From assembly GCA_007695095.1 (NCBI GenBank), contig REEL01000086.1:1-41276 (forward strand): a DNA stretch of 41,276 nucleotides. Direction: 5' to 3'. The DNA comes from Chitinophagaceae bacterium. GTDB lineage: Bacteria > Bacteroidota > Bacteroidia > Chitinophagales > REEL01. The first letter of the stretch is position 1. Every line of letters starts with the position of its first letter. Below the pieces are notes generated by a model. It searched no databases, was not told the DNA's origin, and saw only the letters and a list, made by a program, of their open reading frames with translations. The position numbers were made by a program, and so were the translations under genes. Positions 8,730 through 29,021 of the stretch are shown here, piece by piece.

Positions 8730-10676
8730 CTAAGCATCATCCTTTTTATTAACAAAATACATTGCAACCTTTCCTTTTCCTTTTACTTCAATTTCACCTC
8801 GATATTCACAATTGAAATGTTCTTTTATCAACTTATAGGTAGTTTCAGAAATGTTCACTTTGCCGGTCTCTCCATTACTTTCCATTCGGGCAGCGGTATT
8901 TACCGTATCTCCCCATATATCATATTGGAATTTTTTTATGCCGACTATCCCGGCAACAACAGCTCCTGTATGTAAACCCACTCTGGCTTTTAGTGGCTGA
9001 TTGCCTTTAATTTCCTGTTTTATATTAAATTGATTCAGAAATAATTGAATTTCAATAGCAGCATTTATCATATTGACAGCATGGTTTTCTATGTTTCCAT
9101 GCATTCCTCCAGCCGCCATATAAGCATCCCCGACTGTTTTAATTTTTTCTATTTCGTATTTTTCCATTATTCTGTCAAAAGCACTAAAACACTCATTAAC
9201 TATTTCAACTAACTGATGAGGTTTGAGTTGTTCAGAAACTTTTGTAAAACCAATAAAATCTGTAAATAATACGGTAACCTGATTATACTGCTTTGCAACT
9301 GCGTAACCCTTTTCTTTGAGTTCATTTGCAGTTTCTGCCGGAAGGATATTTAAAAGTAAATCTTCACTTCTATTGCGTTCTTTAGTTATTTTATTTCGTT
9401 GAACAAAGAATAAGCCTGCAAGTAAAATTGTCATGCTAAGACCGGTTAGAGATGCTATAATTTGAAAGTTTTTTCTGCGCATTTCTTCAAAAACCAAAGC
9501 TTCTCTTTTTTCCTGTTCCGATTCAATTAAAGCTTTTTTCTTATCATATTCATGTTCTACATTCATTCGAATGGCTTCTCGCTGATTTTCAATGTTTGCA
9601 ATACTATCCCGCATTTCTATGAAAAGAAGGTGCATTTCAAAGGCATCTTTATATTGCGCCATCTTATGGTATACAGCTGACAGACTTTGGGATGCATTTC
9701 GTAAACTTTCTACATTTTCAATCTCCAATGCTATGTCCATAGACTTTTTAGCATACCTAAGCGCTGAAGGTAAATCTCCGGTATGAATAAACAAATTGCT
9801 TAAAGAATTAAATGCTTTTGCTATTCCAGACTTCATGCTTACGTTCGTATATCTTAATAAAGCTTCTTTATAATACTTTTCAGCCTGAATGTAGTTACCA
9901 TCTTTTAGGTACAGGCTACCTAACTTTTCACTGTTAGCAGCAATTGCATCATCTAATTTTTCAGCTTTTGAAATCGATAAAGACTCATAAAAATTTTTAA
10001 GGGCATTTTCATAGTCTCCCATTTTTTTAAAGAGGTCTCCGATAAAATAATAAGATATAACTATACCTCTAAAGTTTTTGATTTCTGAGTTTATCTCTTT
10101 TGCCTGTCGGTAAAATTTCATAGCAGCATCATAATCGCCCTGTTCGGTATGTATATTTGCGATATTAATTAGATTTGTAGCTATACCTCCTTTATCGCCT
10201 AATTCTTCATTTATTCTGAGAGCGCTGTAAAAATTTTCCAATGCTTTGATTGAATTTCCCTGATCCAGATATATATTGCCAATGTTTAACAGATTTGATG
10301 ACATTCCGCGTTTTCTGTCGTGTTCTTTATTTAACGCATAAGCCCGGTAGTAGTAATCCAATGCTTTTGTATTATCCCCTTTGAAACTACTTAATACCCC
10401 TAAGGTTATTAAAGCATCAGCCTGATATCTAATTACATTCTTTTCTGTAGAATAATCCAGGAGTTTATTGGCAAGTATGTAAGCACTGTCAGCATTCTTA
10501 AAAGCTAATCCATCCCAAGCAACTGTTTTTAGCGCATTTAATCGGACAGTGTCACTTAGAGTTTCATCATCCCAAATTGATAACAAGGAATCTATATTGA
10601 TATTAGCCTTTAATGGATTGATAAAGGATAAAAGAATAAAGAGATTAAAAAGAATATAAAATTTAGTTAAACACAT
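8730..10676 (-). CDS. TPR-sensor transmembrane adenylate cyclase (class III)
   Basis: A 648-residue membrane receptor. Order: an N-terminal signal/anchor (1-25), a run of tetratricopeptide repeats (about 60-350; repeated GDYENALKNFYESLSI-type units), a coiled segment rich in Glu/Lys, a transmembrane helix (about 404-424, IASLTGLSMTILLAGLFFV) and a class III cyclase domain (about 460-640). The metal-binding aspartates lie in VLFTDFIGFT and VGDAYM. The purine-specifying pair reads Lys in IKTVGDAY and Asp in YDIWGDTVN, the adenylate-cyclase rather than guanylate-cyclase combination; NTAARMES supplies the transition-state Asn and Arg. It should therefore make cAMP in the cytoplasm in response to something sensed by the exported TPR domain. 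Signal and effector are unknown. Confidence 0.9.
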   Translation of the reverse strand: MCLTKFYILFNLFILLSFINPLKANINIDSLLSIWDDETLSDTVRLNALKTVAWDGLAFKNADSAYILANKLLDYSTEKNVIRYQADALITLGVLSSFKGDNTKALDYYYRAYALNKEHDRKRGMSSNLLNIGNIYLDQGNSIKALENFYSALRINEELGDKGGIATNLINIANIHTEQGDYDAAMKFYRQAKEINSEIKNFRGIVISYYFIGDLFKKMGDYENALKNFYESLSISKAEKLDDAIAANSEKLGSLYLKDGNYIQAEKYYKEALLRYTNVSMKSGIAKAFNSLSNLFIHTGDLPSALRYAKKSMDIALEIENVESLRNASQSLSAVYHKMAQYKDAFEMHLLFIEMRDSIANIENQREAIRMNVEHEYDKKKALIESEQEKREALVFEEMRRKNFQIIASLTGLSMTILLAGLFFVQRNKITKERNRSEDLLLNILPAETANELKEKGYAVAKQYNQVTVLFTDFIGFTKVSEQLKPHQLVEIVNECFSAFDRIMEKYEIEKIKTVGDAYMAAGGMHGNIENHAVNMINAAIEIQLFLNQFNIKQEIKGNQPLKARVGLHTGAVVAGIVGIKKFQYDIWGDTVNTAARMESNGETGKVNISETTYKLIKEHFNCEYRGEIEVKGKGKVAMYFVNKKDDA

Positions 10677-15762: not shown

Positions 15763-16851
15763 GTGAAAGATAGTCAGTTATTTCCAATAGGTAGTTTAGT
15801 CGTATTAATAGTTATACTTATACTGGTATTAGTGTTACCGGTAAAGATTCCGTATAACATTGACACAAAGGGTTATATTTTGCCTGCAAAAGAGTGGTAC
15901 CTTGAGAGAACCCGGGATGGCAGCTTATTATCAACTTTAAAAGATAATGCTACAGAAAAAGTAAATTCTTTTAGAATAACAGAATTTCAAAGAGGCGATA
16001 TTGCCGGCTTTGAATTAAACCATTTATTGGAACAAAGGGGCGATTTTATATTTCGAGGGGATACTATCGGGTCATTATACTCAAATGACGAACTACGCAG
16101 GGAAGCTGAATTATCTGGATTATTGGCCGAATATAAAGCAGAACTGGAATTTTATTTGGCAGGAAGCAAACAAGAAGAAGTTGAAGCTGCATTAGCTAAA
16201 GTTCAATTAGCTCAGGAGCGTTTGCGAACCGATCAATTAACTTATGACAGAAACTTGCCTTTAATAGAGGATTCCTTAATAGCACCGTCTGAAATAGAAT
16301 TATTAGAGCAACGCTTAAAAACCCATAAAAGTGAAGTTGAAATTGCTCAGGCAAATTACAGAGCCTTGATAACCGGAGCAAAGCCGGAGCAAATTGAGTG
16401 GAGTATAGCCAGAATAAATAATATAGAAAGACAACTGGAAGTATTATCATCTCGTATGGATGCATTTACTATAAAAGCACCTTTTGACGGTGTATTACAT
16501 CCCAAAAGAGTAACCAATGAGCAGCATTATCCGGTAATTGGTCTGGCTGATACTTCTTTTTATATAGTTAAGATGCCGGTTGATATAACGGAAAAAGACT
16601 ACATATTTCCAGGGGCAACTGTTACGGCAAGTATACCGGGTTTCAGCGATAAGCCAATTGGAGAAGTTATTCGTATTGAGCCGGGAGTAAACAGAGTTGA
16701 TGGCAGGCAAGTGTTTTTTGTGAGTGCTAAGTTTCACGCAGGAGAATTCAATCTTATGCCGGGGCTTTTGGCTGATATGCAAATAGAATGTGAGAAAGTA
16801 ACGCCCAGAGAATTTTTATACAGATCGGTTAAATTAATATTTGCACAATGA
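15763..16851 (+). CDS. HlyD/RND-type periplasmic adaptor protein
   Basis: A 362-residue membrane-fusion protein starting at a GTG. It has one N-terminal transmembrane helix (about 8-27), then a split lipoyl/biotinyl-like domain, a helical hairpin coiled coil (about 95-205, rich in Glu, Leu, Arg and Gln), FTIKAPFDGVLHPK (about 236-249) re-entering the lipoyl half and a beta-barrel region with PGATVTASIPGFSDKPIGEVIRIEPG. Such adaptors bridge an inner-membrane pump to a TolC-type channel. No ABC or RND pump is encoded next to it; instead the stop overlaps the start of the VTC polymerase gene (ATGA), and a TolC-like gene follows in the same operon. Confidence 0.88.
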   Translation: MKDSQLFPIGSLVVLIVILILVLVLPVKIPYNIDTKGYILPAKEWYLERTRDGSLLSTLKDNATEKVNSFRITEFQRGDIAGFELNHLLEQRGDFIFRGDTIGSLYSNDELRREAELSGLLAEYKAELEFYLAGSKQEEVEAALAKVQLAQERLRTDQLTYDRNLPLIEDSLIAPSEIELLEQRLKTHKSEVEIAQANYRALITGAKPEQIEWSIARINNIERQLEVLSSRMDAFTIKAPFDGVLHPKRVTNEQHYPVIGLADTSFYIVKMPVDITEKDYIFPGATVTASIPGFSDKPIGEVIRIEPGVNRVDGRQVFFVSAKFHAGEFNLMPGLLADMQIECEKVTPREFLYRSVKLIFAQ

Positions 16852-17654
16852 AACTGAGGTATGAAAGAAAATATTTGGTTCACAATGACCTTCAGGAGGT
16901 TTTGAGGGAGCGTTTTAAACCTTTCCTCAGGCCTGACAAGCATGCAATAGGTCCGTTGGAATATCCTGAATATACAGTCAGAAGTATTTATTTTGATACC
17001 CATGATATGGCGGCTTATTTAGACAAAATAGAAGGCTATAAAAGAAAGAAAAAGCTAAGAATCAGGGGTTATAATGTTCATAGAAATGGCGATAAGGTTG
17101 TTTTTGAAATTAAGCGGAAAATTGGAGACAGAATTTATAAAAACAGAGTTTTCTTAGAGTATGAAGAGCTTCCTAAAGTTATGGATCCTTCGCTTGATTC
17201 AGGTGGTGAATCATTAAGAAATAAGTCATTTTTGAATGACCCGAGTTATAAAAAGTTTAAGTATAATTTGCTTCGCTATCATATGCATCCGGTGATTTTA
17301 ATTTCTTATGAAAGGGAACCTTATCATGGCCAGATTGATAGTGGTGTGCGAGTGACTTTTGACAAAAATATAAGAAGTAAGTTTGCACCTTCTTTAGATG
17401 AGCTTTATAGTGAAACTTTTATGAGGCCATTGTTTAAAGATCATTTTATACTTGAAATTAAGTATTTTACGGATTTTATGCCAAGCTGGGCTAAATCTAT
17501 AGTTGCTGAATACAATCTTCGTAGAGAAGCCTTGTCTAAGTTTTCAATAGGTATAGATGCGCATCATGATGAGAGGATGAAGTTGCCTTCTTCTGCATTT
17601 AGAAGCTATCGTTTGTCCGGATTAAGTAATTTTGTATTTAAGAAAAAACTATGA
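16848..17654 (+). CDS. VTC-domain polyphosphate polymerase-like protein
   Basis: A 268-residue stand-alone VTC domain (triphosphate tunnel metalloenzyme fold), related to the catalytic core of yeast Vtc4, which makes polyphosphate from ATP. The tunnel residues are visible in order: RYERKYLV (R4, E6, K8), RSIYFDT (45-51), KLRIRGY (R71, R73), FEIKRK (E87, K89), SYEREPY (E155, R156), VRVTFD (R168), FILEIKY (E203, K205) and a terminal SKFSIG (K231). All basic and acidic lining residues one would expect are kept, so activity is likely. There is no membrane helix; it would sit at the cytoplasmic face with its DUF4956 partner. ATGA overlaps at both ends show tight coupling to the adaptor and the DUF4956 gene. 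Confidence 0.88.
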   Translation: MKLRYERKYLVHNDLQEVLRERFKPFLRPDKHAIGPLEYPEYTVRSIYFDTHDMAAYLDKIEGYKRKKKLRIRGYNVHRNGDKVVFEIKRKIGDRIYKNRVFLEYEELPKVMDPSLDSGGESLRNKSFLNDPSYKKFKYNLLRYHMHPVILISYEREPYHGQIDSGVRVTFDKNIRSKFAPSLDELYSETFMRPLFKDHFILEIKYFTDFMPSWAKSIVAEYNLRREALSKFSIGIDAHHDERMKLPSSAFRSYRLSGLSNFVFKKKL

Positions 17655-18325
17655 TAGAAGAATTTCAGGATATATTCGTTTTTTCAATTAGTCTGAAACA
17701 AGTTATAGCAAATGTTTTAGTGGCTTTAGTATGTGGTGTTACTATTTCTTTGATTTATCGCTTTTCATACAGAGGTTTAAATTACTCTACTTCATTTGCA
17801 AATTCTATAATTATGCTGACCATGATTACATCTATAGTGATTATGGTAATCGGAAATAACTTAGCTCGTGCATTCGGATTAGTAGGGGCTATGTCAATTA
17901 TTCGATTTAGAACGGCCGTTAAAGACTCTCAGGATATAACTTTTATCTTTTTTGCACTCACTATAGGATTGGCAGCAGGGGTGGGGCTATACGCAGTCGC
18001 CTTTGCCGGTACAGCAATTATCGGCTTTATCATTATGGTATTAAGTGCCATAAACTTCAGCAGTAAAACAAAAAAGGAATATCTCCTTCAGATTTTAACA
18101 GTACCAAGCGGAGAAAAAGAAACTCCCTATCACGACTATATTAAAAAGTATTGTAGACGATATAAGTTAGTGAATGTAAAAGCAGTTGGAGAAGGTGATA
18201 GTGAATTACTTGAGATTTCCTGGTATGTCACTTTAAAAAATGAAGAAGACAATAGCATTTTCATTTCTCAATTAAAAAATATTCCGGGTACTTCTCAGGT
18301 TAATTTATTTTTTGATGAAGAATAA
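17651..18325 (+). CDS. DUF4956 integral membrane protein
   Basis: A 224-residue inner-membrane protein with about four helices (roughly 17-37, 50-70, 97-113, 114-135) and a cytoplasmic C-terminal domain (140-224). The family signature GLVGAMSIIRFRTAVKDSQD (77-96) between helices 2 and 3 is intact. DUF4956 genes are regular neighbours of VTC-domain polymerases in bacteria, and the protein is a plausible channel or anchor for the polymer, by analogy with the membrane subunits of the yeast VTC complex; this role is inferred. The ATG overlaps the VTC stop (ATGA). The TolC-like gene follows after 34 bases. Confidence 0.87.
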   Translation: MIEEFQDIFVFSISLKQVIANVLVALVCGVTISLIYRFSYRGLNYSTSFANSIIMLTMITSIVIMVIGNNLARAFGLVGAMSIIRFRTAVKDSQDITFIFFALTIGLAAGVGLYAVAFAGTAIIGFIIMVLSAINFSSKTKKEYLLQILTVPSGEKETPYHDYIKKYCRRYKLVNVKAVGEGDSELLEISWYVTLKNEEDNSIFISQLKNIPGTSQVNLFFDEE

Positions 18326-18359
18326 GCTTTAGCTTTTCTTTGCAAAAGAATTCTGCATT

Positions 18360-19682
18360 ATGCTCAAATATAAGTTGATTATTTCTTTTCTTTTTTTACT
18401 TTATATTTCTATCGGTATCGGTCGTATGGCTAATGCAGAAGTGAATTTAGAAATTCTTTTGCAGGCTGTTTATGATAACAGTCCGGGTATTAAAGCTTCT
18501 GAAAAGGGAATAGAAAGGTTTATGCTGGAGCAAAATCGTTCAAAATATAATTTTTTCCCCGATTTACAATTTGATTACAGAAATAGAAATAACAGAGGTC
18601 TTTTTGTCGATCCGTCAACCAATATTCTGAGTAGAGATATAGTATTTGGCAATCATGCTTTTTTGTCCAGTGAAATCACCATTTTTAATGGTTTTTATAA
18701 TCATCATTACAGAGAACTTAGCAGGGTTAGAGTAGAAGTGGCAGAATTAAGAACAGAATTAGAAAAACAAAGTATTGCCAGAAAGGTTGCTGTTGCTTAT
18801 TTCACAATTGGTTTGCTGAAAGAGGAAATTAGCAGATTGGAGAAGTTGATTGAGCAGTACTCACTTTTGGAGAGATTTACTTCGGCAAGAGTTGAGAGCG
18901 GACTATTGCATAGCAGAGACATAGCACTTATTCGTGCAGAAGTTGCTGAAATTAATTATAAAATACTCGAGAGCCGGATCATGATAGACAATCAGGTGAT
19001 TTTTTTACAGCAAAACAGTGGCTTATCCGGTTGGGAAGCTGAAGATTTGGAGTTTGATTCATTTTTTGAAATGCTGGAAGAAATTGATGATCTAACGGCT
19101 CCTGTTGACGCTGATGCATCTCAAATTCCAATAGTTTCTTATTATGAAGCACTGGAAAGAGCTGCCGGATATTCATTGAAAATGAGAAGAGCAGAGTCAT
19201 ATCCAAGCTTGAAAGCGGAGGGAATTATAGGTACAAGGACTTCTACACTGGGAGAAGACCCTTTTTCGAGTCAATTTTCTAATAACAATTATCAACAAAT
19301 TGGCTTACTGTTAAATGTTCCTATTTTTAATCGTTTACATTACAAAACTGCGATTGAACAGGCTAAAGTAGATATTGAAGTACTTGCTTATGAGAAGCAG
19401 GCTGTAACAGATGCCTTTCAGTTAGAGCTGACAGCTCTCGGAAGCAGCTTAAATCTGCTCAAGAGGCGACTGGAAGTATATGAGGTGCGGTCTGAGGCAC
19501 TTGAAATGCAATATGAGTTCATTTTTGAAAAGTTTCACAGAGGACTTTCAGATATTTTAGACTTAAGTCAGATAAGACATGACTTAACAGAACTACAATC
19601 TGATAAATTACAAACTCAGATAGAACTGCTTAAGAAAACAATAGACATGAATTTTTTGAAGGGAGAAATATATTTTGATTAA
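18360..19682 (+). CDS. TolC-family outer-membrane factor
   Basis: A 440-residue protein with a signal peptide (cleavage near ANAE, residues 24-27) and the two-fold repeat of outer-membrane efflux proteins. Repeat 1 begins LLQAVYDNSPGIKASEKGIE and contains the beta-strand segment FDYRNRNNRGLF...SSEITIFNGF. Repeat 2 begins ALERAAGYSLKMRRAESYPSL and contains the matching IGLLLNVPIFNRLHYKTAIE. Long helices separate the strands. It should form a trimeric channel spanning the outer membrane and periplasm and dock to the adaptor encoded at 15763. Being in the same operon as a polyphosphate polymerase is unusual. Confidence 0.88.
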   Translation: MLKYKLIISFLFLLYISIGIGRMANAEVNLEILLQAVYDNSPGIKASEKGIERFMLEQNRSKYNFFPDLQFDYRNRNNRGLFVDPSTNILSRDIVFGNHAFLSSEITIFNGFYNHHYRELSRVRVEVAELRTELEKQSIARKVAVAYFTIGLLKEEISRLEKLIEQYSLLERFTSARVESGLLHSRDIALIRAEVAEINYKILESRIMIDNQVIFLQQNSGLSGWEAEDLEFDSFFEMLEEIDDLTAPVDADASQIPIVSYYEALERAAGYSLKMRRAESYPSLKAEGIIGTRTSTLGEDPFSSQFSNNNYQQIGLLLNVPIFNRLHYKTAIEQAKVDIEVLAYEKQAVTDAFQLELTALGSSLNLLKRRLEVYEVRSEALEMQYEFIFEKFHRGLSDILDLSQIRHDLTELQSDKLQTQIELLKKTIDMNFLKGEIYFD

Positions 19683-19690
19683 TTTTAGGT

Positions 19691-20614
19691 ATGAAATCTG
19701 TTAAAAAAGTCTTTTTATTTACTCTTTTAGCTTTCATAATTATAGCATGTAAAGAAAAAGATAAAGAGGAAGAAGATGAATACATAGAGATTGAAATTGT
19801 ACCTGAATTAGTAACCGTATTAAGTATGCAGTTTGAAGAAACTTCAGGTCTTATACACTCAGGTGGGCAATTATGGACGCACAACGACAGAGGGTGGTTT
19901 AATCATATCTATGCAATTGATAAAAATACCGGAAATCCATATATAACCTTAGTTTTAAATAATGCAGGAAGTGTAGATTACGAGGATTTGGCCAAAAGTG
20001 AAATGTTTATTTATGTAGGTGATTTCGGGAATAATACAGGTAATCGAAAAGATTTAAAAATCTATAGAGTACCTAAAATTGAAATAAATTATGAAAACCC
20101 GGGGATACAATACTTACATGTTAATTCCACCCGGTTTTTTTACCCGGAACAAGACGTATTCGAATCAGGTAATCAGCATAATTTTGATTGTGAAGCTTTT
20201 ATTTGGTTTGATAATCATTATTATCTTTTTTTAAAACATCGCTTAGATAATAATACCACACTTTATAAAATACCGGCTCAACCCGGAGAATTTGCTGCAG
20301 AAAAACTGGGAAATTTTGAGAGCAGAGGTCAAATCACCGGAGCTGATATATCTCCTGATAGGGATGAAATAGTTTTATTGGGCTATGATAAAGATGAGGA
20401 TGTATTTATTTGGGTACTTAGTAACTTCGAAGGTGATAATTTTTTTGAAGCAGATTTAATGTATATTAGGCTGGGTACTTTTGATGAGATTGGACAGGCA
20501 GAAGGCATTAGTTATACCGATGATAATAAGTTAATTTATATTAGTGCCGAAAAAACCAACGATACACCTCCTTTATTGTATAAAATTTCAGTTGACTCTT
20601 ATCGCTCAAACTAG
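19691..20614 (+). CDS. Lipoprotein, probable beta-propeller
   Basis: A 307-residue lipoprotein (lipobox IIAC, Cys20), followed by a very acidic linker (KEKDKEEEDEYIEIEIV). The body carries repeated strands that read like a propeller: SGLIHSGGQLWTHNDRG, HIYAIDKNTGN, DYEDLAKSEMFIYVGDFGNN, LKIYRVPKI, GADISPDRDEIVLLGYD and GQAEGISYTDDNKLIYISAE. I do not assign a family; the 'THNDRG...DYEDLA...GDFGNN' pattern is a recurring Bacteroidota surface or periplasmic protein. It starts 8 bases after the TolC stop, so it belongs to the polyphosphate operon. Its stop shares the palindrome CTAG with the stop of the convergent TPR gene. Confidence 0.75.
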   Translation: MKSVKKVFLFTLLAFIIIACKEKDKEEEDEYIEIEIVPELVTVLSMQFEETSGLIHSGGQLWTHNDRGWFNHIYAIDKNTGNPYITLVLNNAGSVDYEDLAKSEMFIYVGDFGNNTGNRKDLKIYRVPKIEINYENPGIQYLHVNSTRFFYPEQDVFESGNQHNFDCEAFIWFDNHYYLFLKHRLDNNTTLYKIPAQPGEFAAEKLGNFESRGQITGADISPDRDEIVLLGYDKDEDVFIWVLSNFEGDNFFEADLMYIRLGTFDEIGQAEGISYTDDNKLIYISAEKTNDTPPLLYKISVDSYRSN

Positions 20615-23113: not shown

Positions 23114-24337
23114 TTATTTCAAACTGACTTTATCTTGATTTTCTTTTGTGTGCTTCTGGTTTGAGTTGATTTTTTCTATCTCTGCAAAAATTTTATCCAC
23201 GTCATTTCTTAAGGCATTATAGTCATTTTGTTGCTCTTTAATAGCTTCAATTAATAAAGCAACTAAAACAGAGTATTGAATAGATTTATAGCCTTCATTA
23301 TCAGTATCCACTACTTCGGGGATAATTTTTTCAACTTCCTGAGCAATTAGTCCTATTTTTGAACCGCTTTCAGCAAGTTCATCACCGGCATATTTATTCC
23401 AGGAATAGCTTACACCTCTTAACTCCATTACTTTTGATAAAGCATATTGCAAAGTTTCAATATCCTCTTTAAGTCTTTCATCAGAGGATTCAGTAATACC
23501 ATCCGACTTAATTCTACCACCGACGTGCAGGCGGTATGCGGGGTTATTATTATTAATACCAACATTACCGCCATTATTGTATATGTTGCTGCTGTTAACT
23601 ACCCATTGGCTTCCATTCCAGTATGTAGTGTTACCTGCTGCTGTTCCGTTTGGTAGCAATCCGTCTTGTCCGGCCGGCCCTTGAGGTCCTGTTGAACCTT
23701 GTGGTCCCTGAGGTCCTGTGGCTCCCTGTTGCCCGGTCGGTCCTGTAGCACCTTGCTGTCCGGTTAAATCTATAGTGGTAAAGCTAGAACCATCGGAATA
23801 ATTAATTGTAAAAGTACCGTTTTGATTATCTGTAGTTGAGACAATTCCTACGCCATCAGTGCCATCTTGTCCATCTGAGCCAGAAGTTCCTTGTGGACCT
23901 GCCGGTCCCTGAGGGCCTAAAACCTGACCGGCATTCACTGTAGTATTGTCTGAATAAGTCAGAATTAAATCACCATTAAAATTGACTACAGCATTAATTA
24001 TTCCGACTCCATCTTGTCCGTCATTTCCGTCTTGTCCATCTATTCCGGCAGGACCTGATGGTCCGGCAGGGCCAATAGCTTCTACCCATTGAGTGCCGTC
24101 AAAGTACCAAAACTGATTAAAATCTGTATCATAAACAAATAAACCGGTAGCCGGATTATTTATATTATTTCGTTGCAAAGTTGTTACACGAGGTATTAGT
24201 ACCCCTTTATCGGAAGATTGTATTTCAAGAATAGCAGAAAGGTCAGGGGTAGTTGTTCCAATTCCTACATTATCCTGGGCAAATAAACTGAAATGGGAAA
24301 AAGAAACAAATAAAAAACAAGAAATTAGTTTTTTCAT
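23114..24337 (-). CDS. Collagen-like surface protein with S74 chaperone domain
   Basis: A 407-residue exported protein (signal ends LFAQ, residue 21). Order: the NVGIGTTTPD motif, a 'GLFVYDTDFNQFWYFDGTQW' block (64-84), collagen-like Gly-X-Y repeats at about 89-111 and 140-162, and a longer one at 192-227 (GATGP, GPQGS and GPAGQ units), a trimeric-looking strand region (about 255-285) and a C-terminal S74 intramolecular chaperone domain. The S74 dyad is visible as S285 and K290 in ESSDERLKEDI, with GLIAQEVEKIIPEVV after it. In phage tail spikes this domain helps trimers fold and then cleaves itself off. Downstream of the DUF7948 gene by 26 bases, probably the same transcript. Confidence 0.87.
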   Translation of the reverse strand: MKKLISCFLFVSFSHFSLFAQDNVGIGTTTPDLSAILEIQSSDKGVLIPRVTTLQRNNINNPATGLFVYDTDFNQFWYFDGTQWVEAIGPAGPSGPAGIDGQDGNDGQDGVGIINAVVNFNGDLILTYSDNTTVNAGQVLGPQGPAGPQGTSGSDGQDGTDGVGIVSTTDNQNGTFTINYSDGSSFTTIDLTGQQGATGPTGQQGATGPQGPQGSTGPQGPAGQDGLLPNGTAAGNTTYWNGSQWVVNSSNIYNNGGNVGINNNNPAYRLHVGGRIKSDGITESSDERLKEDIETLQYALSKVMELRGVSYSWNKYAGDELAESGSKIGLIAQEVEKIIPEVVDTDNEGYKSIQYSVLVALLIEAIKEQQNDYNALRNDVDKIFAEIEKINSNQKHTKENQDKVSLK

Positions 24338-24363
24338 AGCATTAAGTGATATTAAGTATGTTA

Positions 24364-27069
24364 TTATTGATGAATTTCAAGAGTAGCACCGGAGGTTGTT
24401 TGAACTTCCAAATGTCCACCATTTGTGGTGTTAATGTCTAAAGTATAACAATTTGCATTATTCCCTGCATGTATAACAGGGTTATTGGGAGTTCCACCCG
24501 GAATAACTACCGGCGAGGAGGATGTTGGGACGCTGACTTTATCCCAATTACAGGCTTCATGCCAATCATCGTTGATACTGCCTGTCCATGTCCAGATACC
24601 CGCAGGACCACCCGGGGTACCTCCGGGAGTGACTGTTACAGCTACACAAGAAGACCAGCAATTATTAGCTCCCAGAGCATTAAAGTAAAAAGTGCCACCG
24701 GATGTTACGTTAAAAGTTCCACTAAGCGGATTAGCCGTGCTGGTTCCGCAGGAAGTTCCCTGATAGTAATATGTAACACCGCTTGGAGGTGTTGGGAATG
24801 TTATTGAAGCTCCACTGCAATCTTCTACTACAGTTGGATCCGGAGGAGCCGGAACTATGCTAAATTCCCAGATTGAAAAGCTACTGGTACTTGAACCATC
24901 GTTCGTCGGGTCAAAGTAAGCACCTCCACCCGGGTCTGTAGCCGGTAAAGTTGTTGACCAGGTTGGAGATGTATAATAAAGTCTGTTTTCAAATGGTGTA
25001 TAAGCTATTTTAGGCCTTGAAGAGTTTTCTCCAATATATGATGACCATATAGCCTGATAGTTTGAGTTAAATCTCATCATGAAATTCGAGCCAAAGCTTG
25101 GAGATGTTTGATTATAAAAACCACTGTATGGAATAGCTATAGCATTATTTGTGCGGGCTGATAAAATAAAGTCTCCGCAATCAGTAAGAATTGGATCCCA
25201 AATAAAGTCTCCACCTCCATCATGCCCCCAATAGGTAGCCCATTGGCGCGCACCACTGTTGTTAAACTTTAAAATATAACTGTTGAAATTATCAAAACTG
25301 CCTCCACCACCTGAAGCATTGGCAGGGGCTGTAGTTTTGTTATAAGCGCCGGACATGCTTTGAGTTGGGAAGTTGATACTGTTTGTACTTCCGGTAATAA
25401 TAATATTGTCACTGTTGTCTGTAATGATTTGCAACCCGTTACCAAATGATGAACGTGTACCATCATTATGTGCTCCTCCATACATGGTATTCCACATCAT
25501 GGCACCATTTTGATTAAAACGGGTTATCATTAAGTCAATTCCACCGGCATTAAACATTTGATTATAAGCACCGGACATGCTCATTAGTCTTTCATTTGTA
25601 GCATTACTGGATGAATTCCATGTTGACTCAGTTACTATATAAATATGATTATTGCTATTAAATGCTATGTTTGAATTGCTTTGAGATCCGGGGCCACCAA
25701 GAAATGTTCCCCAGATTTGATTGTATGAACTATTAAGTAATAAAATAAACACCTCCCAGCCACCTCCACTAGTTGATTGATTATAAGCACCAGACCTAAA
25801 CATTACCGGAGGGTTTCCAAAATCATAGGTATTATATACAATTCCAACCAATCCACTATTGCTGATTGCTATACTGGGATGAGCTGAGGAATGTCCACCA
25901 ATATTTGTAGAGTGAAGTAATGATCCGGTATTTCTGTTAAACCTCAGGTAAAAAGGTCTTTGTTGTGCAGTATTTTCAAAATAACCACCCCCGTTAACCA
26001 GTGGCATTTCAGTACTACCACTACTGCCAACTATGTGTAATATATTACCGTGTATAGCCATCGGACTGGTTCCTAAAGCCCAAACTGTACCTGTTCCTCC
26101 AAAATATGTAGCCCATTCTAAAGCTCTGTTTGCATCAAATTTTGCTATATAAGCATCAATGTTTCCTCCAAATGCTTGCTGATAAGAACCTCCGGGTCCG
26201 ACTACAGGATAGTCTGTTGAAGGTGAAGATATTGCATGAGTACTTGCAAGTAAAAACATATTACCATCTTCATCAGCTACTATATTGTTTCTCTCCATAG
26301 AACCGGCACCGGAAGCTGTTTCAAAATATGTTGCCCAGGTAAGTGTTGGGTCAATTGTCAGTTTTTCAAAATAATCTGCATCAGTTTTGAAACCAATCAC
26401 TCCATCATTTAAAACATATTCAACTGTGACTTGCTGCTCTTTATCTCCATTAATAAACGAAACAGGAATATCCTCAATGATTTCTTCAAAAAGTGTAGAA
26501 ATATATACTTTGCCGTCTCTTAAACTTATACCTTTCGCACCCTCGTAATTAAGTTGCACATCTTCAATATTTGCACCCTTATGGAGAATGATATCATATT
26601 TTATTCCGGATTCTAGTTGATAAAAAACGATATCAATATGGTCATATACATTTTTGTATCTGATTTGATTAAAGGTATTTACTCCTTCAATTAGCTGTTT
26701 ATTAAGGTAAAAGTTCTTATAGTGACTATTTTTCCCTTCACCGATGATCTCAACATTTTTATTTGCATTTAAAAAGCGCAAATCAATTCTATGCATAGTT
26801 GTTTGAAGCAATGGAATCAGACTGTCGATTTTGTCTTGTTGTCCTTCATATTCCGTAAAATCAAAATCTTCCAATTGTCCGAAGTTGTAAACGACTCTAT
26901 CTTTCTCAAAAAATAAAGCGGCATTATTAGTCCCGTATGAAAATGCAACCTGAGGTTGTAATTCCAGTTTTTTATTCATCACTTGCCCTGAATTTTCAAT
27001 AAACTGGGCTTTTGAAGTTAGATTTAGAATAAAAAAAGATATAAAAAGTAAAACTAAATGTTTTGTCAT
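24364..27069 (-). CDS. DUF7948/SBBP-type secreted propeller protein
   Basis: A 901-residue exported protein (signal ends SKAQ, residue 21). It starts with the DUF7948-type domain (FIENSGQVMNKKLELQPQVAF; about 22-245, ending TIDPTLTWATYFETA). A beta-propeller of SBBP-like repeats follows (about 245-740): each repeat pairs a 'WATYFGG/WGTFLGG' strand with a 'SGAYNQ' turn, seen as SGAYNQ, SGAYNQM and SGAYNKT about 74 residues apart. Then come a Cys-containing Ig-like region and a final WTWTGSINDDWHEACNWDKVSVPT module. Proteins of this kind usually end in a T9SS sorting domain; here the product stops at TLEIHQ without one. It is presumed to lie at the cell surface; function unknown. Confidence 0.82.
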   Translation of the reverse strand: MTKHLVLLFISFFILNLTSKAQFIENSGQVMNKKLELQPQVAFSYGTNNAALFFEKDRVVYNFGQLEDFDFTEYEGQQDKIDSLIPLLQTTMHRIDLRFLNANKNVEIIGEGKNSHYKNFYLNKQLIEGVNTFNQIRYKNVYDHIDIVFYQLESGIKYDIILHKGANIEDVQLNYEGAKGISLRDGKVYISTLFEEIIEDIPVSFINGDKEQQVTVEYVLNDGVIGFKTDADYFEKLTIDPTLTWATYFETASGAGSMERNNIVADEDGNMFLLASTHAISSPSTDYPVVGPGGSYQQAFGGNIDAYIAKFDANRALEWATYFGGTGTVWALGTSPMAIHGNILHIVGSSGSTEMPLVNGGGYFENTAQQRPFYLRFNRNTGSLLHSTNIGGHSSAHPSIAISNSGLVGIVYNTYDFGNPPVMFRSGAYNQSTSGGGWEVFILLLNSSYNQIWGTFLGGPGSQSNSNIAFNSNNHIYIVTESTWNSSSNATNERLMSMSGAYNQMFNAGGIDLMITRFNQNGAMMWNTMYGGAHNDGTRSSFGNGLQIITDNSDNIIITGSTNSINFPTQSMSGAYNKTTAPANASGGGGSFDNFNSYILKFNNSGARQWATYWGHDGGGDFIWDPILTDCGDFILSARTNNAIAIPYSGFYNQTSPSFGSNFMMRFNSNYQAIWSSYIGENSSRPKIAYTPFENRLYYTSPTWSTTLPATDPGGGAYFDPTNDGSSTSSFSIWEFSIVPAPPDPTVVEDCSGASITFPTPPSGVTYYYQGTSCGTSTANPLSGTFNVTSGGTFYFNALGANNCWSSCVAVTVTPGGTPGGPAGIWTWTGSINDDWHEACNWDKVSVPTSSSPVVIPGGTPNNPVIHAGNNANCYTLDINTTNGGHLEVQTTSGATLEIHQ

Positions 27070-27125
27070 CTATCTGTTATTTAAAGAAATGTACTATAAA
27101 AATTTTTAAAAAAATCGACAAGCTT

Positions 27126-29021
27126 TTACTCTGTCAATAATGATCTAAACTCAGGATTATCCATCATTATCTCAATCAATTTTCTCTGTAGTTTGATTTC
27201 AGATTGTATTTCAGCTACTACTTCAGTGAGAGCTGCATATTGACTATTGCCGTATTGTATCATTTCCTGCTGCTCTTTTATAGCTTCGATTAATAAGGCC
27301 ACTAAAACAGAATAATGGACAGATTTTATTCCCTCTTCATCTGCATCTACCACTTCAGGAAGAATTTTTTCAACTTCTTGTGCAATTAATCCGATTTGCA
27401 ACCCTTTTTCCTGATTTTCAACAGAAGATTTTTCATTCCATGTATATGAAACGCCTCTTAGAGCCAGCACTTTTGCCAAAGATTCTTTTAGGTCGTTTAT
27501 ATCATCCTTTAGTCTTTCATCTGAGGATTCTGTAATTCCGTCAGAACGAATTCTGCCGTTAACATGTAATCTGTAGGATGGATTGGTGTTGCTGATTCCA
27601 ACATTCCCATTGTCACGTATGGTAATACGTTCATTTAAGGTTCCTGTATTACTTACATAAAAACTTAATCCCGCATTGTATCTTGCAGTTGTTGAGTACC
27701 AGCCTGTTCCGGCAGTATTATAGTTTTTAGTGGCAATTTTCGCATATACATAATCCTGAGAGCTGCCGGTATAGTGAAAGTCAATTGCTTTTATTTCAGT
27801 GCCACCAACAGCCATACCATCAGTGACTCCACCTGCATTTCTATTGTCAGTATGGTCGAATCTGACATTACCGCTGTTACTTCCTCCAACTAAGTGTAAT
27901 GTAGCTTGAGGAGCTGCATTGCCTATACCAATATTACCATTGTTTAAAATGGTCATTACCTCATCACCGTCAGCTGTTATTCTATAAGCAGTACCTTGAA
28001 AATTCCATCTCGGACTTCCGCTTAAAGTAAAAGTAGTGGAAGCCCCACCTAAAGGCTCTATAAGCATACTTCCTGCACTGGTTTGAACTTTAAAATTGCC
28101 CTCTACATGCAATCTTTCATCCGGAGAGCCGGTTCCAATACCAACATTTCCGGAGTTTTTATTATAAATATTATTTCCGTTTTGATTCCACTTACTATCA
28201 TCAAATGGAGGAACACCTGTTAAATCTGACCAAGGTATAGTAGGTGTAACAGATAGAACTCCATTGTTATTAGATCTTACATATCCGCTAGATAATGCTC
28301 TTACCCTTAGATTTCCTTGCACATCTAATCTTTCAGTAGGTGAAGTTACACCTATACCTACATTACTATTTGAGCCTCTCATATATATCCAGCTACCGGA
28401 TTGTGCATTTCTGAATTCTATATCTCTGCTACTTTCGCTGGTTTCAAAATAATACGGACTCCCATAATCATATCCAAGCTCTAAAGTATGTCCTGTGTTA
28501 TAGCCATGCCATCTAAACATAGTATAACTTTGACCGCTACTAATGCTTCCGTCACCACGGTGAATAATAATGTTGCCCGGTTCAATTCTTAGATTCCCAT
28601 CAATATTCGTGTTGCCACTTATATCTAATGGGTAAGAGGGAGACATGTTTCCAATTCCCACGAAACCATTGTTCATTAAGGCAATTCTGTTTTGGTTATT
28701 GGAAGTAAGAAAAAACGAATGATTGGAAAAAGTACCAATTCTTCGATCACTGCCAACCATTCTAATATTTCCACCTATATTAAGCCGTTCACTTAATGTA
28801 GTGGTACCAATACCGGTTCTCTGATCATCCCGAACAATAAACATGGAAGTACCGGAACTGTTAATAATTTCAAAACCTTTACTGGATGCTGTGTTTCCTG
28901 TTGTCCTAATCTCTAATTTTGCATCAGGTGCAGCCGTCCCAACTCCAACATTTTGAGCTGTTGAGTATTTGCAAATAGTAATAAAAATTAAAGAGAGGAA
29001 TAAAAAGTAAATCTTTTTCAT
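27126..29021 (-). CDS. Surface fibre-like protein with S74 chaperone domain
   Basis: A 631-residue exported protein (signal ends YSTAQ). It consists of repeated NVGIGxxxPxxxLxVxG strands (for example NVGIGVTSPTERLDVQG, NVGIGTGSPDERLHVEG, NVGISNTNPSYRLHVNG) that resemble the beta-rich shaft of trimeric fibres, and a C-terminal S74 domain (about 495-600) with the Ser-Lys dyad in ESSDERLKDDI (Ser near 499) and GLIAQEVEKILPEVVDAD, then a coiled-coil tail. Its S74 domain is closely similar to that of the protein at 23114-24337, so the two are paralogues sharing a C-terminal module. No phage structural gene lies nearby, which favours a bacterial surface role. It is 56 bases upstream of the DUF7948 gene. 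Confidence 0.85.
   Translation of the reverse strand: MKKIYFLFLSLIFITICKYSTAQNVGVGTAAPDAKLEIRTTGNTASSKGFEIINSSGTSMFIVRDDQRTGIGTTTLSERLNIGGNIRMVGSDRRIGTFSNHSFFLTSNNQNRIALMNNGFVGIGNMSPSYPLDISGNTNIDGNLRIEPGNIIIHRGDGSISSGQSYTMFRWHGYNTGHTLELGYDYGSPYYFETSESSRDIEFRNAQSGSWIYMRGSNSNVGIGVTSPTERLDVQGNLRVRALSSGYVRSNNNGVLSVTPTIPWSDLTGVPPFDDSKWNQNGNNIYNKNSGNVGIGTGSPDERLHVEGNFKVQTSAGSMLIEPLGGASTTFTLSGSPRWNFQGTAYRITADGDEVMTILNNGNIGIGNAAPQATLHLVGGSNSGNVRFDHTDNRNAGGVTDGMAVGGTEIKAIDFHYTGSSQDYVYAKIATKNYNTAGTGWYSTTARYNAGLSFYVSNTGTLNERITIRDNGNVGISNTNPSYRLHVNGRIRSDGITESSDERLKDDINDLKESLAKVLALRGVSYTWNEKSSVENQEKGLQIGLIAQEVEKILPEVVDADEEGIKSVHYSVLVALLIEAIKEQQEMIQYGNSQYAALTEVVAEIQSEIKLQRKLIEIMMDNPEFRSLLTE

Follow-up and report, generated by a model that had tools for sequence, protein, structure and literature searches.

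How could a polymer made at the inner membrane reach the outside of the cell through an adaptor and an outer-membrane channel that are encoded without a pump? This question is raised by a five-gene operon in the 41,276-nucleotide contig REEL01000086.1 of a Chitinophagaceae bacterium (GenBank assembly GCA_007695095.1), which was analyzed as a whole and is called the window here. The operon encodes a HlyD-type periplasmic adaptor, a VTC-domain protein, a DUF4956 membrane protein, a TolC-type channel and a lipoprotein. From the conservation of the gene set, the specificity of the adaptor and the intact active site of VTC, we consider it rather probable (about 0.6) that VTC, DUF4956, the adaptor and TolC constitute a dedicated trans-envelope system that exports polyphosphate and is driven by synthesis of the chain. 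The five genes are as follows.

15763-16851, + strand: HlyD-type periplasmic adaptor of the class-1 VTC-linked family (GTG start, 362 amino acids, Pfam HlyD_3 E = 9e-6)
16848-17654, + strand: predicted VTC-domain polyphosphate polymerase, a cytoplasmic triphosphate tunnel enzyme (268 amino acids, Pfam VTC 1.2e-34)
17651-18325, + strand: DUF4956 inner-membrane protein, apparently MgtC/SapB-like (224 amino acids, Pfam DUF4956 3.1e-16)
18360-19682, + strand: TolC-type outer-membrane channel of an operon-specific clade (440 amino acids, Pfam OEP/TolC 2.7e-29)
19691-20614, + strand: acidic, propeller-like lipoprotein, probably surface-exposed, an optional member (307 amino acids, lipobox in the sequence)

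The initial annotation had described five genes on one strand with two ATGA overlaps, at 16848 and 17651, followed by two gaps, of 34 and 8 bases. Open reading frame calls and direct reading of the sequence gave exactly these positions. Its title called the parts of the operon "fused", which is acceptable as a figure of speech; taken literally, the five genes are separate. It also stated that no pump is encoded here, and a Pfam scan of the window neighbours agreed, finding no ABC, RND or MFS genes adjoining the operon in the window. Inverted repeats were looked for upstream of the operon and none were found.

Conservation of the core and specificity of the adaptor

VTC was surveyed in a phylum draw of 392 genomes and an order draw of 398, and was present in 61 and 131 of them, respectively. 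In a first set of 120 regions around VTC, a HlyD-type adaptor adjoined VTC-DUF4956 in 36 regions in addition to the window. There were two arrangements: class 1 has the order adaptor-VTC-DUF4956, as in the window, and class 2 has the order VTC-DUF4956-adaptor (eight loci). For a second set, an alignment of class-1 DUF4956 proteins was scanned against one genome per species (84,980 species). This gave at least 540 relatives, of which the best 80 were taken; a contig scan with a single VTC protein as query gave no matches. The adaptor lies directly upstream of VTC in 78 of the best 80 relatives, the other two being L223, which ends at a contig edge, and L242, which has no adaptor.

Class-1 loci total 107, a number that slightly overstates the independent loci because a few are in both sets (L069 and L244, on contigs of equal length, look like the same place). 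They belong to Bacteroidota and phyla close to it, and the genes almost always form a tight operon. At least 105 of the 107 loci have VTC between the adaptor and DUF4956, the adaptor-VTC gap is 30 nucleotides or less in 101, and the VTC-DUF4956 gap is that short in 92. Carriers were found in Bacteroidota, Ignavibacteria, Calditrichota, Marinimicrobia, Krumholzibacteriota, Latescibacterota and Zixibacteria, and named isolates with the system include Lunatimonas, Belliella, Alkalitalea, Natronoflexus, Alkaliflexus and Geofilum. The idea that the gene order is confined to this genome was rejected because the core order recurs in these loci. As for the five-gene order as a unit, the adaptor-VTC-DUF4956 core is widespread, whereas TolC (in place in 7/107 loci) and the propeller protein (about 21/107) are optional. 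Neighbour clustering of 115 loci, which falls short of a full family scan per locus, revealed no recurring pump family at a fixed place. Among L181-L260, many class-1 carriers belong to Bacteroidales and related groups that are haloalkaliphilic or come from soda lakes (Alkaliflexus, Natronoflexus, Alkalitalea, Lunatimonas and CSSed/T3Sed metagenomes); uneven sampling may account for this prevalence.

A profile of the class-1 adaptor (A6) was searched through the same 392 phylum-draw genomes. The scores showed a clear break: 31 places scored 160-455 bits, and generic adaptors scored 134 bits or less with partial profile matches only. With a threshold of at least 160 bits, the class-1 adaptor was present in 28 of the 392 genomes, that is, in 27 of the 61 genomes with VTC versus 1 of the 331 others (Fisher p = 1e-23, a guide only, since the genomes are not independent). 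A further draw, from the class, gave the same picture: VTC and DUF4956 came after every other high-scoring adaptor. The expectation that the HlyD-type adaptor co-occurs with VTC beyond chance was thus borne out. By the same profile search we rejected the idea that the adaptor is shared with a pump; it is specific to VTC-DUF4956.

The single adaptor genome outside the VTC group is G166, in which the VTC search of the phylum draw found no VTC. At its locus (L305:4435-7706) the genes for adaptor, DUF4956 and TolC follow one another on the same strand, so the view of G166 as an orphan adaptor was dropped. Because 27 of the 28 genomes share VTC and G166 is the exception, we assign the class-1 adaptor to DUF4956-VTC, with DUF4956 as the partner kept in the absence of VTC. 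This modifies the earlier proposal that the DUF4956-VTC pair sits in the place of the pump. Since G166 keeps adaptor, DUF4956 and TolC without VTC, it is DUF4956 and not the pair that takes this place.

Other ARRANGEMENTS were also found. In a large group of VTC-DUF4956 pairs the adaptor is absent and a DUF2490 protein follows. DUF2490 is near such pairs in 44 of the 120 first-set loci (e.g. L122:7950-8639). Its weak matches lean to outer-membrane beta-barrels, and it is possibly an alternative outer-membrane exit. In a quick tree of DUF4956 with long branches, class 2 forms one clade and the DUF2490 group stands apart from the adaptor groups. At L303:3482-7400 (G062:C24), which holds a second VTC of that genome, DUF4956, a HlyD_D23 adaptor, OEP and VTC lie in a row; this locus joins VTC-DUF4956 to another, separate set of adaptor and TolC, in which the adaptor is of a different type. 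The adaptors vary, and the DUF4956-VTC pair stays constant. In nine loci (L075, L080, L083, L085, L098, L106, L114, L119 and L133), a membrane-anchored protein of about 830-1000 amino acids lies between DUF4956 and VTC. It is CotH-like in L075 (E 1.5e-5), the one tested, and this group has a short VTC.

Component proteins

Profile comparison aligned VTC with yeast Vtc4 (3g3q among others). In alignment numbering, K8, R71, R73, K89, K98 and Y154 of VTC correspond to K200, R264, R266, K281, K294 and Y359 of Vtc4, and R156, R168, E203, K205 and K231 correspond to R361, R373, E426, K428 and K458. The tunnel active site is complete: all 11 Vtc4 positions are invariant in the alignment of 114 VTC proteins. 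Vtc4 was impaired when R264, R266 and E426 were changed together (PMC9911596). VTC is probably a polyphosphate polymerase that makes polyphosphate from ATP.

The model of the adaptor (predicted local distance difference test, pLDDT, 89) has an N-terminal transmembrane helix, lipoyl and barrel domains, and a long alpha-hairpin, each arm of which has about 60 residues. Its closest Foldseek matches were MacA, EmrA and AcrA. Common to the class-1 adaptors is an insertion with an F-RGD (FQRGD) motif, located in the first lipoyl half. The TolC-docking tip motif RxxxLxxxxxxS (RLS) is conserved among 105 adaptors, with R in 102, L in 93 (and M in nine more), and S, A or T in 97. In the window adaptor the tip residues are R163, L167 and A174, the serine of the motif being alanine. 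The RLS motif binds TolC, and the change of serine to alanine is tolerated in MacA (PMC3391258).

The DUF4956 protein has five predicted transmembrane helices and a C-terminal ACT-like domain (model pLDDT 84). In the fold search the ACT-like part alone was matched, by domains including the MgtC C-terminal domains 2lqj/7qa5, and the transmembrane part had no match. Comparisons of DUF4956 with MgtC all remained below the cut-off (0.012 and 4e-5 in Pfam; 8.9e-6 for NCBIfam MgtC/SapB). These results suggest that DUF4956 is MgtC/SapB-like. In the corresponding gene set of Streptococcus, SIR_1592 was called MgtC plus ACT by its authors, and Pel-dependent aggregation is affected by SIR_1592 as well as by SIR_1594, which is CotH-like (PMC12345266).

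TolC lies directly 3' of DUF4956 in the window and in six other genomes (L182, L207, L227, L229, L250 and L260). L182 has the full order of the window including the lipoprotein, and in L227, L229, L250 and L260 a homologue of the lipoprotein stands in front of the adaptor. When the window TolC was compared with these six whole genomes, the top match had the coordinates of the operon TolC in all six. The bit scores of the operon TolC and the next-best TolC were 114.7/19.5, 79.6/29.4 and 77.2/29.8, and 58.1/43.8 in the narrowest case. The proposed linkage of TolC to VTC-DUF4956 is therefore upheld by operon-located orthologues. A first profile search had made this TolC appear nearly unique to the genome; the wider set with its six operon TolCs overturned that view. 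The window genome encodes five TolC proteins in all. Three of the other four adjoin an adaptor, one together with an RND pump, one together with a CusA-like RND pump and one with the adaptor only, and the fourth has no obvious partner.

The lipoprotein has no Pfam family above the cut-off, and the profile of the propeller protein gave only chance-level matches in the PDB. Some of its relatives match Phytase-like or SdiA-regulated models. Its lipobox is followed by a charged acidic stretch (IIAC-KEKDKEEED). Homologues adjoin the core in a minority of loci, and one carries a type IX sorting tail. The earlier idea that the acidic lipoprotein is an outer component of the system is tentative, because the protein is an optional member, present in so few of the loci.

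Proposed machine and rival explanations

In the proposed system, VTC, on the cytoplasmic side of the inner membrane, would build the phosphate chain from ATP. DUF4956 would receive the growing chain and let it cross the inner membrane, as Vtc1 and the transmembrane domains do in yeast. The HlyD-type adaptor would cap DUF4956 in the periplasm and dock via its RLS hairpin tip onto TolC, whose gene is part of this operon and, in most relatives, presumably lies at another place in the genome. The driving force would be chain synthesis and not a pump. In the yeast VTC complex, cytosolic synthesis of polyphosphate is coupled to its translocation through a channel of the transmembrane helices of the complex (PMC9911596). 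Other adaptor linkages, namely the eight class-2 loci with their separate DUF4956 clade and L303, support polyphosphate export by such a machine.

Several points weigh against it. TolC is not adjacent in most core loci. A non-adjacent TolC is common among adaptor systems that share a TolC, which is no proof of its use here. PPK1 is also encoded in this genome and could supply cytosolic polyphosphate, leaving VTC free for another role. DUF4956 is a putative pore, and the conduit of G166 may carry something else or may be a relic. VTC-DUF4956 pairs also occur in Gram-positives (PMC7112168, PMC12345266) and, often with DUF2490, without an adaptor, so the pair can work without one. In the overall interpretation of the initial annotation, export still stands as the best-supported explanation, with the amendment that DUF4956 is the substitute of the pump and that TolC and the lipoprotein are optional.

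The G166 locus also speaks for an unlikely alternative in which adaptor, DUF4956 and TolC export another substrate, such as an ion, a metabolite or another polymer, and VTC regulates or energises this export from the cytoplasm. The ACT-like domain of DUF4956, possibly regulatory as in MgtC, would suit such a role, as would the effect of the related S. intermedius proteins on Pel polysaccharide-dependent aggregation (PMC12345266). The position of VTC between the adaptor and DUF4956 in nearly all class-1 loci and its invariant active site argue against this alternative, as does the constancy of the DUF4956-VTC pair while adaptors vary. Less likely still is a chance neighbourhood, in which a cytosolic polyphosphate enzyme happens to be encoded next to an adaptor and a TolC of the ordinary efflux kind that are served by a pump elsewhere. 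TolC proteins are often shared, most core loci have no adjacent TolC, and RND pumps are encoded in this genome; against these stand an adaptor family near-exclusive to VTC genomes, overlapping genes, operon-located TolC orthologues and several distinct adaptor linkages.

Polyphosphate export by VTC, DUF4956, adaptor and TolC might have an added purpose related to CotH kinases. In the phylum draw, CotH was found in 59 of the 61 genomes with VTC versus 80 of the 331 without it (p = 1.4e-28, a statistic that kinship of the genomes inflates), and in all 28 class-1 adaptor genomes. VTC is almost confined to genomes with CotH, while many genomes have CotH and no VTC. At least 37 of the 107 class-1 loci, many of which end early, have CotH within 9 kb, and eight CotH proteins are encoded on other contigs of the window genome. 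Since CotH homologues near VTC have type IX sorting tails, CotH probably acts outside, where ATP is scarce; given the co-occurrence of CotH and VTC, exported polyphosphate might feed surface phosphorylation. The same machine would then provide the phosphate donor of secreted CotH kinases, a proposal to which the membrane-anchored CotH-like protein between DUF4956 and VTC elsewhere adds. This purpose is doubtful, because 80 genomes have CotH without VTC, and we know of no CotH-family kinase that uses polyphosphate. Equally speculative is the full picture of a pump-less tripartite conduit with DUF4956 as gate and the polymerase as motor, bringing polyphosphate to the surface for these kinases.

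Two other regions of the window, both on the - strand, were noted. At 23114-29021, a DUF7948 protein is flanked by two proteins that carry a Peptidase_S74 domain, an intramolecular chaperone, at the C-terminus; one of the two also has collagen-like repeats. At 8730-10676, a TPR protein has an adenylate/guanylate cyclase domain at its C-terminus.

Comparison with known systems

For the placement of bacterial polyphosphate outside the cell and the role of VTC-DUF4956, this operon offers a concrete candidate machine. No description of the system was found in the literature on bacterial VTC/DUF4956, CotH-polyphosphate and polyphosphate export, as covered outside subscription journals. If the proposal is true, it gives a role to the widespread uncharacterised MgtC-like family DUF4956 and ties VTC to extracellular CotH kinases.

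The eukaryotic VTC complex (Vtc1/Vtc3/Vtc4) has a homologous polymerase with the same tunnel residues and a membrane partner beside the synthase. In the present system, however, a DUF4956/MgtC-like partner replaces the VTC transmembrane domain, there is no SPX sensor, and the operon adds an adaptor and TolC across two membranes. The tripartite efflux pumps and type I secretion systems MacAB-TolC, EmrAB-TolC and HlyBD-TolC likewise have a TolC channel and an adaptor with a transmembrane anchor, a hairpin and an RLS tip. Here the ABC, MFS or RND pump is absent, and DUF4956 with VTC is in its place. A pump is a defining feature of the tripartite pump families; because a search of the gene set found none, we did not place the system among them. 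To our knowledge, it would be the first adaptor-TolC conduit without a pump.

In alginate secretion by Alg8-Alg44-AlgK-AlgE, a case of synthase-dependent exopolysaccharide secretion, a synthase is coupled to an envelope conduit, and Alg44 has a HlyD-like periplasmic part. That system handles a sugar polymer, is under PilZ/c-di-GMP control and uses a beta-barrel porin. The gene set described here would resemble it in joining a putative synthase to a conduit and would differ from it in the polymer, the control and the use of TolC instead of a porin. The CotH-polyphosphate polymerase-DUF4956 accessory genes of Gram-positive pel clusters share the VTC and DUF4956 families, the CotH neighbour and a link to an exported polymer (PMC7112168, PMC12345266). 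They have no adaptor or TolC, and these papers report no polyphosphate export. The system would thus be a hybrid that combines coupled synthesis of the VTC type with export through an adaptor and TolC.

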